Assembly: GCF_013032855.1 (NCBI RefSeq)
Contig: NZ_WQDA01000003.1
Span: forward strand, 310,001-374,000
Direction: 5' to 3'
From: Ruegeria arenilitoris
Lineage (GTDB): Bacteria; Pseudomonadota; Alphaproteobacteria; Rhodobacterales; Rhodobacteraceae
DNA length: 64,000 nucleotides
The notes beneath the pieces are model-generated. The model was not told the DNA's origin. It did no database searches and was given only the letters and a program-made list of their open reading frames with translations. Positions 56,936 through 61,880 of this stretch are shown here, piece by piece; the first letter of the stretch is position 1, and every line of letters starts with the position of its first letter. The position numbers and the translations under genes were made by a program.

Positions 56936-57304
56936 GTGGGTCAAACGATTTACGAGAAATACGGCGGGTTCAAAACCATCAGCCGGATCGTGATGACATT
57001 TTACGAAATGGCATTGGAATCGGATGAGATCGGAGGCTACTTCGAAGATATCGACATGCCTCGGTTGATCGATCACCAAACCAAGTTCGTTTCGTCTCTG
57101 GTGGGTGGTCCAGCGTCTTTCAGTGATGATCGGATCGAGGCCGTGCATCGCCACCTCAACATCAGCCACGATGATTTCGACGAGATGGCTACGCTGTTCG
57201 GCGAAGCCCTTTCATTTCATGGAATGACCGAAGATGACGTGCAGGTCGCGCTGGCTGCGATCGAAGGTAAGAGGGCGATCATCGTTGCCCGGGATGCGGC
57301 ATGA
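56936..57304 (+). CDS. Truncated haemoglobin, group I
   Basis: The 122-residue globin fits the truncated (2-on-2) group I: IYEKYGGFKTISRIVMTFYEMAL at the start with Tyr23 near B10, GYFEDIDMPRLIDHQTKFVSSLVGGP with Gln48 in helix E, and the proximal His71 in IEAVHRHLNIS. It should bind O2, NO or CO through haem. Start is a GTG at 56936. Its stop overlaps the adenylate-cyclase gene start by 4 bp (ATGA), so both are made together, which suggests it is a sensor subunit rather than a general NO scavenger. Confidence 0.9.
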   Translation: MGQTIYEKYGGFKTISRIVMTFYEMALESDEIGGYFEDIDMPRLIDHQTKFVSSLVGGPASFSDDRIEAVHRHLNISHDDFDEMATLFGEALSFHGMTEDDVQVALAAIEGKRAIIVARDAA

Positions 57305-58359
57305 GCATCCTGGCCATCAACGAGCATCTGCTGCGTGCCATCGGGGTCGGTGTAGCGGTATTGCGGGCCTCGGACCTGACCTTCGTGTTCCACAATGGTC
57401 CATTTGCCGAATGGTTCGGCAAACCCGAGCCCGGCCAGACACTTTTGGATATATTGCCGGATCTCGACCAGCGCGAACTGGATGACGTCAAACAATCGGG
57501 CCTGCGATACTCGGCCGAGCTGCAGATGAAGCCCAAGCGCCGCACGCTGATCTTCGCGGTGACGATTTCCTTGGCCAACGGGATGGATGAGCAGGTTTTG
57601 GTTGTCGAATGTCAGAACATCACGAAAATTCGTGAGCTGGAAAGCATGATCGACAGCTATTCGACCATGGTCGAGCGCAACACCCGCGAGTTGGAAAGAG
57701 AAAAGGAAAGGGTCGAACGGCTTTTGCTGAACCTGATGCCGCGTGCGGTCTATGAAGAGTTCAAAACCTTCGGCGTAGTGACGCCTCAGCTGTATGATCA
57801 GGTTTCCGTGGTCATGCTGGATTTCGTCGGCTTTACGGATTTTGCGGCAAAAACCGACCCTACGGTCACCCTCAGCGAGTTGAATGACATCTTCACCGCC
57901 TTCGACCGGATCGTCGAACAGTTCGGGTGTGAACGGATCAAGACGATCGGAGACGCTTATCTTGCGGTCTCAGGCATGCCCGACGCCACGCCCGACCATG
58001 CCACGGCGGTTGCGCATTGTGCGGTCCGATTTCTGCGGTATCTGGAACGGCGCAACGAAAGTCATCCGCACAAATGGCAGGCCAGGATCGGGCTTGGCAT
58101 GGGGCCCGCCGTTGGGTCAGTGGTAGGGATCCAGAAATACGTCTATGACGTTTTCGGACCGGCCGTGAATATAGCATCGCGGTTGCAGGTCTTTGCAAAC
58201 CCCATGAACATCGTTGCCCCGGAAGAGATGAAATATGCACTGATCGATGAATTCCAGGTCTCGGACTTGGGTCCGGTCGACATCAAGGGGATGGGCATGA
58301 TGGATCTGATCAATGTCACCTCACGGCTGAACGCACCGCATGCCAGCCGGATGTTTTGA
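57301..58359 (+). CDS. Class III adenylate cyclase with N-terminal PAS-like domain
   Basis: The 352-residue soluble protein has a PAS-like domain (about 8-105), a signalling coiled coil (about 107-146, MIDSYSTMVERNTRELEREKERVERL), the linker LLLNLMPRAVYEEF common before guanylate/adenylate cyclases, and a cyclase domain (about 165-345). Metal-binding Asp174 and Asp218 are present, as are Asn290 and Arg294; the base-selecting pair is Lys214 and Asp283, which predicts ATP rather than GTP. Co-translated with a truncated haemoglobin, it is likely controlled by the haem protein or by its own PAS domain. Confidence 0.93.
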   Translation: MSILAINEHLLRAIGVGVAVLRASDLTFVFHNGPFAEWFGKPEPGQTLLDILPDLDQRELDDVKQSGLRYSAELQMKPKRRTLIFAVTISLANGMDEQVLVVECQNITKIRELESMIDSYSTMVERNTRELEREKERVERLLLNLMPRAVYEEFKTFGVVTPQLYDQVSVVMLDFVGFTDFAAKTDPTVTLSELNDIFTAFDRIVEQFGCERIKTIGDAYLAVSGMPDATPDHATAVAHCAVRFLRYLERRNESHPHKWQARIGLGMGPAVGSVVGIQKYVYDVFGPAVNIASRLQVFANPMNIVAPEEMKYALIDEFQVSDLGPVDIKGMGMMDLINVTSRLNAPHASRMF

Positions 58360-58362
58360 CGG

Positions 58363-58977
58363 TCATTCGTCGGGCGGAACCAGCCCCAACCCTCTGAGGT
58401 AAATGCCGATCCCGGATTCCAGAAGGTCTTCGGGCGGGAACGGCGAACTGGCCCCCGCATTGCGGGCATAAAGCTCGACTACACCATGACTCATCGCCCA
58501 GATATGCGCGCTGAACATAGACGCCGGTGGTCGCTTTTCCGGCGGAATGTGTTCTGAAAGATCGGCCGCAGCCATTTCCAGAACCTCCTTTGCACGGTTG
58601 GCGGCCAGCGCCAGCTCGGGCGTCCGGTTGACCGAGATTCCGCTTTCGAACATCGAGATGTAATGGCCGGGATGCTTGCGCGCAAACGCCAGATATGCGC
58701 GCCCGGTCGCTTCGAAAGCGGCCAGCGCCGAGGGCTGCCCCTTGTCATAGGCATACTGCATGAGGTCCGCGAACATCTCGAACCCCTGACGGGCCGCCTC
58801 GGCGATCAGATCCTCGCGACCCTGATAGTGTCGGTAAACCGCGGCTGGGGTGACGCCGGCCCGTTTTGCGGCCTCAGACAATGTGAAGCCGGTCGGACCT
58901 TTTTCTTCGATCAGCGAGAGGGCGGCGTCGATCAGCGCCTGTTTCAGATTTCCATGGTGATAGCCGCGTTTGGTCAT
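58363..58977 (-). CDS. TetR-family regulator (WHG-type ligand domain)
   Basis: The 204-residue protein has the TetR helix-turn-helix (LIDAALSLIEEKGPTGFTLSEAAKRAGVTPAAVYRHYQGREDL) and a C-terminal helical domain of the WHG type. The gene ends 3 bp from the convergent cyclase stop. Target genes are not evident; the PPK2 gene upstream on the same strand is 123 bp away. The ATG at 58977 starts MTKRGYHHGNLKQ. Confidence 0.93.
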   Translation of the reverse strand: MTKRGYHHGNLKQALIDAALSLIEEKGPTGFTLSEAAKRAGVTPAAVYRHYQGREDLIAEAARQGFEMFADLMQYAYDKGQPSALAAFEATGRAYLAFARKHPGHYISMFESGISVNRTPELALAANRAKEVLEMAAADLSEHIPPEKRPPASMFSAHIWAMSHGVVELYARNAGASSPFPPEDLLESGIGIYLRGLGLVPPDE

Positions 58978-59100
58978 TCCGCCGGCACCTGCCTGTGTTT
59001 GCGTGCTCTTTTACCAACCAGACATAATGCACGCGGCGCAGCAGGTCCAATCCCTGGGGCATGATCGGAGGGGCCACTGCTTGACCAAAGGCGCCCTAGA

Positions 59101-59985
59101 CTACGCATCCCAGATTTCCGGTCCGCCACAAATCATCGGGTCGGGCTCTCCAACGGCTTCGGCGTCCTTTTCGTCATAGTCCAAGGTCGACAATATCGCC
59201 CGGATTGCCGCAAGCCGGGCACGCTTCTTGTCGTCCGAACGGATGATCGTCCAAGGGCACAGATCGGAATGGGAGCGTGTCAGAGTTTCAGAAATCGACT
59301 GCGTGTATTCATCCCATTTGCCCAGACCGGCGATGTCTATAGGGCTCAGTTTCCATTGTTTCAGCGGGTCGTTCTCGCGCGCGAGAAACCGGCTGAGCTG
59401 TTCTGCGCGCCCGACGTTGAGCCAGAATTTGAACAGGTGAATGCCGTCATGAACAAGCCCGTTCTCCAGTGGCATGACCTGCCTGAAGAAGCGTTCCCGC
59501 TGGTCTGCGGTGCAGAATCCAAAGACGTTTTCGACGACCCCCCGGTTGTACCAGCTGCGATCGAAGAAAACGATCTCGCCAGCCGATGGCAGGTGCTGAA
59601 TGTACCGCTGGAAGTACCATTGGCTGCGCTCGGCGTCGGAGGGCTTGCTGAGGGCGACATTGCGGGCGCCACGCGGGTTCAGGTTTTCCCGGAACCGCTT
59701 GATGGTACCGCCTTTGCCCGCTGCATCTCGACCCTCGAACACGATCGCGATGCGTTGTCCGGTTTCCTTGACCCATGCCTGCATCTTGACCAGTTCGATC
59801 TGCAGGGCCTCCATCTGCTTGTCATAGTCCTTGCGCTTCATCCTCTCCTGATATGGGTAGCTGGGGTTCAGGATGTCGCCTTTTTCAGCGTCTTCGATGG
59901 CCTTTCGCACGCTCTCGGGAGCGTCGTTCCGAAAGTAGCTGTTGATTGCTCGGTCCGCTGCACGGGTCATGAGTTGCCTCGCCAT
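59101..59985 (-). CDS. ppk2: Polyphosphate kinase 2
   Basis: The 294-residue protein is a class I PPK2: Walker A in [16 protein letters not shown] (about 85-100), the [12 protein letters not shown] Walker-B-type motif (about 145-156) and the lid with [27 protein letters not shown]. It transfers phosphate between polyphosphate and nucleoside diphosphates, mostly making GTP or ATP from polyphosphate. Single gene, 34 bp from the hydrolase gene upstream, which may share a transcript. Confidence 0.95.
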
Positions 59986-60019
59986 AAAATCCAGTTTCTA
60001 CTATGGATTACGGGCGGGG

Positions 60020-60973
60020 TTAACGCAAACCCGCTCGTTCCGCGGCACGTTCGACCGCAGCAGCAACTTCCGGAGCGTCCACCACCTGCGGCATGTGCCC
60101 CATGCCTTCAAGTTCGATCAGCTCAGCGCCGGGGATTTGTTCGATCAGCCGCTCGGAATGCCAGCCCAGACCAACTGTCGTATCTGCCGTACCATGCACG
60201 ATTTCGGTGGGCACCGATATCTCAGGGTAGCGCGGTTGCAGTTCGGCAACTTCGTCCAGGAGGTTGGCCCGTTGTTTTGCGTTGGCATGCATCGACGACC
60301 GGCGGAGCGTCAGGACCGGGCCAAAATGCTCGGCATAGCCTTCGGGTGCCGTCTGGGGGGCAAAGACCGTATCCAGGGCCTTGTTGACGTACCAGTCCGG
60401 AACGTAGGCGGTGATCAACGGCAGGACGAGAGCATTTCCCCAGGAGGTCGAGGCAATGCGGTTGAAGGAATCGAGCGGAGTTTCCCATGGCACTGCGGCC
60501 GGGGCTATCAGGACCAGAGCCGAGATGTTGTCAGGTCGCGTCACAGCCCAGGCCAGTGATACCGACCCGCCATAGCTTTGGCCGGCGACGATGGGTTTGT
60601 CGGCCCCCAGCATCGCGGCAGCTTTCTGCAGGATTTCTGCCTGCTCAACGATGGTTTCGCCATCCGCCGAGAAGCTCTGAGAATAGCCCAGCCCCGGCCG
60701 GTCGAATACAATGACCCGAAAGGACTTTGCCAGCAACGGCGCCAGAGCAAACGTCATGTCCCGGGTATTGCCGCTGGACCCGTGGATCAGGACGACATCC
60801 GGGCCTTCGCCCATGACGACGGCATGTACAGCAACGCCGTCGACATCCAATACCTGACCCTCTGGCGGAAACGCGGCCTCGGCCCGGGCCTCATGGCGTG
60901 CGGCAAGCCAAGCCGTCAAAGCCGCAAAAAGGGCCGCAAACAGGCCCAAGTATATCAACGACTTAATGACCAA
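60020..60973 (-). CDS. Alpha/beta hydrolase, membrane-anchored
   Basis: The 317-residue protein has an N-terminal hydrophobic anchor (about 4-25) and an alpha/beta-hydrolase fold: oxyanion stretch [12 protein letters not shown], nucleophile Ser in [13 protein letters not shown], Asp in [10 protein letters not shown] and catalytic His in LEGMGHMPQ. It probably faces the periplasm. The substrate is unknown. It overlaps the metA-type gene by 11 bp at its start. Confidence 0.9.
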
Positions 60974-61880
60974 TTTTCGTCATGTCGAAAGGAGTGGTCT
61001 GGTAGATCTCGTTGATCCAGTTCCCATACAGCAGATGCGCATGGCTACGCCACCGGTTCTGAGGCGTGCGGGACGGGTCATCGTCGGGATAATAGTTGAT
61101 GGGCACGTTGATCGGAGTGCCATTGGCCACGTCCCGGTCGTATTCCTGTTTCAGGGTGTCACTGTCGTATTCGAAGTGATTGAAGATATACAGCGCCCGG
61201 TTCTGCCGATCTTCAACAAGACACGGACCGACCTCGTCGCTGCCCAGAAGGGTCACAAGCCCTTCGGCAGCGTCGATTTCATCCTGACGGACTTCGGTCC
61301 AGCGACTGACCGGGATCACGCAGTCATCCGAGAAGCCTCGCAGGAAAGGCGAGGCCGGTGACAGGTTCCGATGCCGGAAACACCCAAACGCCTTGGCGTC
61401 CAACATATACTTTTTGACGCCATGAAAGTGATAGATCATCGCCATACCACCCCAGCACACGCCGAAGGTCGAATGCACATTGGTTCGGGTCCATTCGAAA
61501 ACCTCGGTCAGTTCGTCCCAATAGGTGACGTCCTGAAACTCCAGATGCTCGATGGGGGCGCCGGTGATGATCAGGCCGTCAAATTTCTGGTCCTTCACGT
61601 CCTGAAAGGGGCGGTAGAACTCTTCCATGTGTTCGGCCGCGGTGTTTTTGGTCTGATGCTCGGTCATGCGGATCAGGGACAACTCGATCTGCAGAGGCGT
61701 CGCGCCGATCAATCGGGCAAACTGGTTTTCGGTCTGGATTTTCTTCGGCATCAGGTTCAGCAACCCGATCTTCAGGGGCCGGATGTCCTGCCGTGCGGCC
61801 TGATCCTCGGCCATGACCATGACGCCCTCTTTCGTCAGAACGTCAAAGGCCGGGAGGTCGGACGGAATCTTGATAGGCAT
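60963..61880 (-). CDS. metA: MetA-family homoserine O-acyltransferase, predicted acetyltransferase
   Basis: The 305-residue enzyme acylates homoserine in methionine synthesis. The catalytic Cys142 (FGVCWGG), His235 and Glu237 (NHFEYD) stand at exactly the numbering used for this family. Residue 111 is Glu (APIEHLEF); in studied members Gly111 gives succinyl-CoA use and Glu111 gives acetyl-CoA use, so this is likely a homoserine O-acetyltransferase although usually called succinyltransferase. No SAM riboswitch is seen in the 37 bp before the gene. It overlaps the hydrolase gene by 11 bp. Confidence 0.94.

Follow-up and report, generated by a model that had tools for sequence, protein, structure and literature searches.

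A gene for a truncated haemoglobin runs directly into a gene for a class III cyclase in Ruegeria arenilitoris, and this globin/cyclase pair is genuine, as confirmed in the sequence and by conservation. That the joined order is conserved across many alphaproteobacteria suggests that the haemoglobin senses gas for the cyclase. Together the two proteins probably form a haem gas sensor with cAMP output, in which the globin, as a separate haem sensor, would control the cyclase by contact. The window analysed here is a stretch of 64,000 nt (contig NZ_WQDA01000003.1, positions 310,001 to 374,000, forward strand); the features of the pair are collected in Table 1.

Table 1. Features of the globin/cyclase pair, with positions counted from the first letter of the window.
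Feature	Position	Strand	Properties and basis
Group-1 truncated haemoglobin	56936-57304	+	122 aa, GTG start; PF01152, PDB relatives, invariant residues
ATGA, cyclase start codon over globin stop codon	57301-57304	+	Sequence; spacing -4 in 82/104 pairs
PAS-coil-class III cyclase, predicted adenylate cyclase	57301-58359	+	352 aa; PF00211; model pLDDT 83.9
PAS-like N-terminal domain, residues 3-106	57307-57618	+	Model secondary structure; PAS_8 in Novosphingobium homolog
Long signalling helix and linker with LLLNLMPR, residues 108-156	57622-57768	+	Model helices 108-145, 148-156
Class III catalytic domain, residues 161-343	57781-58329	+	Six catalytic residues; Z <=25.9 to cyclase domains

An earlier note on this DNA had claimed that the globin stop codon overlaps the cyclase start, and the sequence bears this out, with both codons contained in one ATGA. 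Read from this overlap by itself, the globin and the cyclase would be produced at a fixed ratio. The stop codon separates two open reading frames, and globin and output are thus not one polypeptide, as they would be in a globin-coupled sensor. Existing annotation of a Novosphingobium homolog names the two products 'group 1 truncated hemoglobin' and 'adenylate/guanylate cyclase domain-containing protein'.

Within the family, a search returned 20 of 149 genomes with a cyclase match at E 1e-20 or better. Window-type cyclases number 13, in 12 of these 20 genomes, and each of the 13 has a globin directly upstream. As controls, 17 other class III cyclase loci were fetched from the same genomes (two more matches yielded no locus), and none of the 17 has a globin within 1.5 kb. 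The pair survey used the N-terminal part of the cyclase alone as its query (alignment A3). From the contig search the best 80 of 224 confirmed matches were retrieved; in the class and phylum searches, where cyclase matches of E 1e-10 or better were taken, 17 of 385 and 3 of 299 genomes had matches, the latter all Alphaproteobacteria like the rest. Among the matches retrieved, a same-strand globin lies directly upstream in 112/112 loci with this N-terminus, a count that includes repeats of the same place. Such retention excludes a chance neighbourhood. Setting aside the damaged loci L121 and L123 and merging identical pairs gives 104 pairs, 82 of which share the 4-base overlap (spacing -4). Whole-genome pair matches span 13 alphaproteobacterial families by their assigned labels, one of which (G175) has a decayed copy only; the hosts include Ruegeria, Leisingera, Tritonibacter, Roseibium, Stappia and Limibaculum, and the Novosphingobium pair is located on a plasmid. 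The earlier note had proposed conservation of order and overlap as a check, and both are kept far beyond close relatives.

Against 11 relatives, dN/dS is 0.03-0.11 where dS was computable (globin 8/11, cyclase 7/11), values that are rough because dS is near saturation. Over 49 representatives, the distances among globins follow those among cyclases (r 0.76, against at most 0.32 in 2000 permutations), a correlation to which species history contributes and which shared descent may explain. Among the well-supported splits, 15 in the globin tree and 28 in the cyclase tree, nine are shared and one pair conflicts.

The globin reading frame matches PF01152 at E 6.9e-14, above the curated cut-off, and its best sequence relatives in the PDB are group 1 truncated haemoglobins. 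Protoglobin is matched only at E 0.13, under the cut-off, so that the protein is not assigned to the 3/3 sensor globins. The pocket is formed by Tyr23 (B10), Leu44 (E7), Gln48 (E11) and His71 (F8), the E7 and E11 positions having been placed by aligning the protein to the group 1 globin 3aq5, which we take to be the Tetrahymena protein. Across the paired globins, Tyr-B10, Phe36, His47, Gln-E11, Phe51 and His-F8 are invariant (104/104), and from this pocket the globin is predicted to bind haem. The combination of Tyr B10, Leu E7 and Gln E11 is also that of mycobacterial HbN, an NO dioxygenase that is active without any partner.

Paired globins further carry an E-helix signature, Asp46-His47-x-Thr49-Lys50, whose four residues occur in 49, 49, 47 and 48 of 49 representatives, as compared to 1, 3, 1 and 2 of 18 rows of the best-scoring unpaired globins (two of these rows being repeats of the same domains). 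The two sets differ also at Phe12, Ser29 and Asp101, and have the haem residues in common. The signature may mark a docking surface; common descent may also be read from it. Of the 385 class genomes, 70 have a globin match at E 1e-8 or better. Three globins closely related to the paired one stand without such a cyclase in the fetched flanks: L174 (G187), L175 (G457) and L176 (G241), the last being a second globin copy in its genome. The dependence of the globin on the cyclase is thus weaker than the reverse. Downstream of two of these three loci lie genes for a Rieske-type oxygenase subunit and a dienelactone hydrolase.

The cyclase frame matches PF00211 at E 2.9e-41, above the curated cut-off, and holds all six catalytic residues (Asp174, Lys214, Asp218, Asp283, Asn290 and Arg294), which align with human AC5 C2. 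The residues named in the earlier note, Tyr23 and His71 of the globin and Asp174, Lys214, Asp218 and Asp283 of the cyclase, all stand where it had placed them. The base-selecting pair Lys214/Asp283 predicts ATP as the substrate and cAMP as the product. The R. arenilitoris genome has one PF01152 match, 14 PF00211 matches and eight cNMP-binding domains, and the last of these count for a cAMP output. Loss of the catalytic residues in homologs had been named beforehand as evidence against a sensor. The full set is kept in 96 of 104 paired cyclases, while seven members, six from histidine kinase-linked loci, are degenerate; in L124 and L125 the sole change is Lys214 to Arg.

The N-terminal part of the cyclase reaches 17.4 bits against PAS_8, under the cut-off of 21.8, and its Novosphingobium homolog reaches 24.4 bits, above it. 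An AlphaFold2 model of the cyclase (48 sequences; pTM 0.53) gives residues 3-106 the strand and helix order of a PAS domain, followed by the long helix. The best full-length Foldseek matches of this model are chains of soluble guanylate cyclase. In VIA-align these chains run along cyclase residues 1-342 or 3-343 and begin at their own residue 205-274, presumably behind the H-NOX domain. One of them, 8hbe_A, aligns with Z 22.9 over 317 residues at an rmsd of 14.2, and chains made up of a catalytic domain alone go up to Z 25.9. Because the whole-length alignments have rmsd values of 14-22 and few rows cover the PAS part, they support the shared layout and do not speak for closely similar PAS domains. 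HNOBA is matched at E 0.005, under the cut-off, and neither window protein matches HNOB, the H-NOX family, at E up to 1. As modelled, the cyclase has the layout of a soluble guanylate cyclase minus H-NOX. The earlier comparison of its linker with that enzyme thus stands for the PAS-coil-catalytic layout; it is limited by the HNOBA match under the cut-off and by a PAS part compared with few chains at large rmsd.

Taken together, these data can be arranged into a mechanism in which control would involve: binding of haem and a diatomic gas, O2 or NO, by the globin; docking of the globin on the PAS and coil region of the cyclase homodimer; a shift of the coil, and thus of the catalytic dimer, that would alter the cAMP made from ATP; and reading of the cAMP by CRP-type proteins. 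The pair with its overlap and conservation, the residues and the predicted fold of the cyclase are established. We infer all four particulars of the mechanism, namely the contact, the ligand, the sign of regulation and the product, and the PAS domain may carry a signal of its own. Counting for a two-protein sensor are the pairing without exception, its spread over 13 families, the recurrent spacing and the empty control loci, as well as the invariant haem pocket, the catalytic set, the distance correlation, the E-helix signature and the guanylate cyclase-like layout. Counting against it are the resemblance of the pocket to that of HbN, the lack of FNR- or CRP-type boxes upstream of the 49 representative pairs, and the pTM of 0.44 for a joined-chain model of globin and cyclase (L116, read through the intervening stop). 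The domains of this model are confident, and its linker is poorly predicted or disordered; with that pTM and linker it is silent on docking and does not fix the place of the globin. A Foldseek search with it added nothing on the interface.

The gas may be approached through the genomic setting. A loose NnrR-type pattern lies upstream of 3 of the 49 representative pairs, with nothing recurring. Matches to NirK or NirS-type nitrite reductases occur in 8 of 12 pair-bearing genomes and in 43 of 137 other genomes of the family (Fisher p 0.02, uncorrected), where NirK denotes a match above the cut-off and NirS-type a PF02239 match of ~315 bits or more picked from the listing, PF02239 also covering related proteins. 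The R. arenilitoris genome itself has such a match. This association leans weakly towards NO as the ligand. The pair was also considered as a replacement for H-NOX. Of the 149 family genomes, 108 have HNOB matches, among them all 12 that bear the pair; the pair is therefore no stand-in for a missing H-NOX.

The same nitrite reductase association can be read another way: the globin could be an NO dioxygenase or an O2-binder merely co-expressed with a cyclase that senses otherwise through its PAS domain, the two proteins never touching. The HbN-like pocket fits this account, as do two genes for FAD oxidoreductases, possible electron donors, that precede the globin in some operons. Such oxidoreductases are missing beside the window pair and in most loci, however, and a detoxifier would not need the dependence that is observed, in which the cyclase is never seen without the globin (112/112) and the globin is seen without the cyclase. 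We consider mere co-expression unlikely, at perhaps one chance in a few. Since the cyclase has a PAS domain, and some PAS domains elsewhere bind haem, the globin might instead deliver or guard haem, or a redox state, for a PAS domain that itself senses the gas or the redox state. The invariant and near-invariant columns of the PAS alignment over residues 1-106 contain no conserved histidine suited to haem, and we regard this account as improbable.

The pair could also be an old arrangement retained without any functional linkage, every example found being alphaproteobacterial. The genes downstream in the window, at 58363-61880, are convergent with the pair and include a TetR-type regulator; the other two we take to be PPK2 and MetA. 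Of 24 named representatives, 13, 14 and 11 have homologs of these genes (TetR-type, PPK2 and MetA, respectively) close to the pair, a shared neighbourhood that would suit an old order. In the remaining representatives, however, these neighbours are missing and the pair is retained; it occurs, moreover, in 12 of 149 family genomes and is plasmid-borne in Novosphingobium. Retention of an old order is accordingly disfavoured, and we hold it very improbable. For the window type no wider conserved operon was found, the shared downstream genes lying on the opposite strand.

The proposed two-protein sensor has partial counterparts among known systems. PMC8738867 describes bacterial stand-alone H-NOX proteins that adjoin a histidine kinase or a diguanylate cyclase/phosphodiesterase and regulate it in trans. 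The pair resembles these operons in that a small, separate haem protein is encoded beside a signalling enzyme (112/112 loci here). It differs from them in its haem fold, which is a truncated globin (PF01152, no HNOB) and not H-NOX, and in its output, a class III cyclase here and a diguanylate cyclase there. By analogy, the logic of the pair is that of the H-NOX operons (PMC8738867), and the version with a truncated globin and a class III cyclase appears to be new. Among open-access papers, at the level of titles and the starts of abstracts and with most subscription papers outside this scope, no description of a truncated-globin/cyclase pair was recognised. With soluble guanylate cyclase the pair shares the order PAS, coil and class III catalytic domain; in contrast to that enzyme, neither protein contains H-NOX, the sensor is on a separate chain, and the base-selecting pair is the Lys/Asp of an adenylate cyclase.

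Globin-coupled sensors use a globin as the gas-sensing module for a signalling output, as the pair would. Theirs, as described in PMC7082302 and PMC3287990, are 3/3 sensor globins on the output's own chain, whereas here a 2/2 globin occupies a chain of its own. Leishmania HemAC-Lm is described in PMC4534343 as a globin-coupled haem adenylate cyclase, a single haem-containing soluble cyclase. It brings globin, O2 and adenylate cyclase into one pathway, as the pair would, but is one eukaryotic protein where the present system is two bacterial ones.

The earlier note had also asserted that known globin-coupled sensors do not use group I truncated globins, which in that wording finds no support, since truncated globins do occur in signalling fusions. 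According to PMC7082302, 2/2 globin domains also exist as fusions to a protein kinase, and the globin model found PF01152 domains within alphaproteobacterial CheA-type kinases, between the Hpt and dimerisation domains (L179:2116-5154, L180:396-3395 and L181:854-4453), and in the N-terminal position of an MCP chemoreceptor that also contains a PAS domain (L182:1965-4829). In L181 a second PF01152 domain lies between the ATPase and the end of the CheW domain. These fusions, as truncated globins in alphaproteobacterial signalling proteins, support the general idea of globin signalling; unlike the pair, they are fused, have a chemotaxis-type output and contain more distant globins (~51-77 bits to the paired-globin model).

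One group of pairs is linked to a histidine kinase. On plasmid pLA3 of Novosphingobium pentaromativorans two FAD oxidoreductases come first, followed by the globin, the cyclase, a hybrid histidine kinase (with PAS, HisKA, HATPase and receiver domains) and an OmpR-type regulator. This kinase was sought at >150 bits in the flanks of 50 representatives, and lies directly downstream on the same strand in five, on the opposite strand in four, upstream on the same strand in one and nowhere in 40. All five cyclases with a kinase directly downstream have lost Asn290, Arg294 or more, as compared to one of the four with an opposite-strand kinase and one of the 40 without a kinase (L022); a directly downstream kinase and a degenerate cyclase are associated at p 1e-5 (Fisher). 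The degenerate kinase-linked members all keep the globin Tyr, Gln and His, and a globin pocket kept while the cyclase decays counts for the globin as the sensor. In the cyclase tree, from which L183 is absent, six kinase-linked representatives fall on one branch (support 0.93), with L007 and L113 joining at 0.14. As the kinase-linked members are mostly of one branch, the residue loss may represent one or few events. The loci concerned are L183, L184, L185, L187, L188, L189, L108, L111 and L204, mostly with the regulator, and some also carry FAD oxidoreductases, an alpha/beta hydrolase and an OsmC-like gene.

PMC8738867 describes HnoD, an inactive cyclase-type domain that serves as a regulator, which is a precedent for the degenerate cyclases. 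A broader reading can be entertained tentatively, at somewhat less than even chances: the pairs would be a split gas-sensor family of the Alphaproteobacteria, in which a truncated globin acts in trans as H-NOX does, on a guanylate cyclase-like PAS-coil-cyclase. One group would have been rewired to a hybrid histidine kinase, its cyclase now a signal-passing pseudo-enzyme, so that the sensor stayed constant as the output passed from cAMP to a phosphorelay.

If these proposals are true, the haem sensor of an enzyme like soluble guanylate cyclase can be a globin supplied in trans, O2 or NO would be linked to cAMP in marine roseobacters, and the kinase-linked group would show in nature how an output can be exchanged behind a preserved sensor. 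Many truncated haemoglobins are, to our knowledge, without an agreed role. A partner enzyme that is never found without the globin offers one lineage of them a testable function as a gas receptor.

Several loci depart from the common form. The G125 genome, which also contains L012, holds a second, very diverged pair (L022/L186, G125:C6:1135500-1147500) whose cyclase is degenerate and whose globin pocket is intact; L022 lacks a start codon in the vicinity. In G175 (L178:2743-4066) the cyclase frame contains in-frame TAA and TAG codons and the globin is broken, which is read as decay and not recoding. The cyclase of L197:5516-6598 (G355) has one in-frame TAA.
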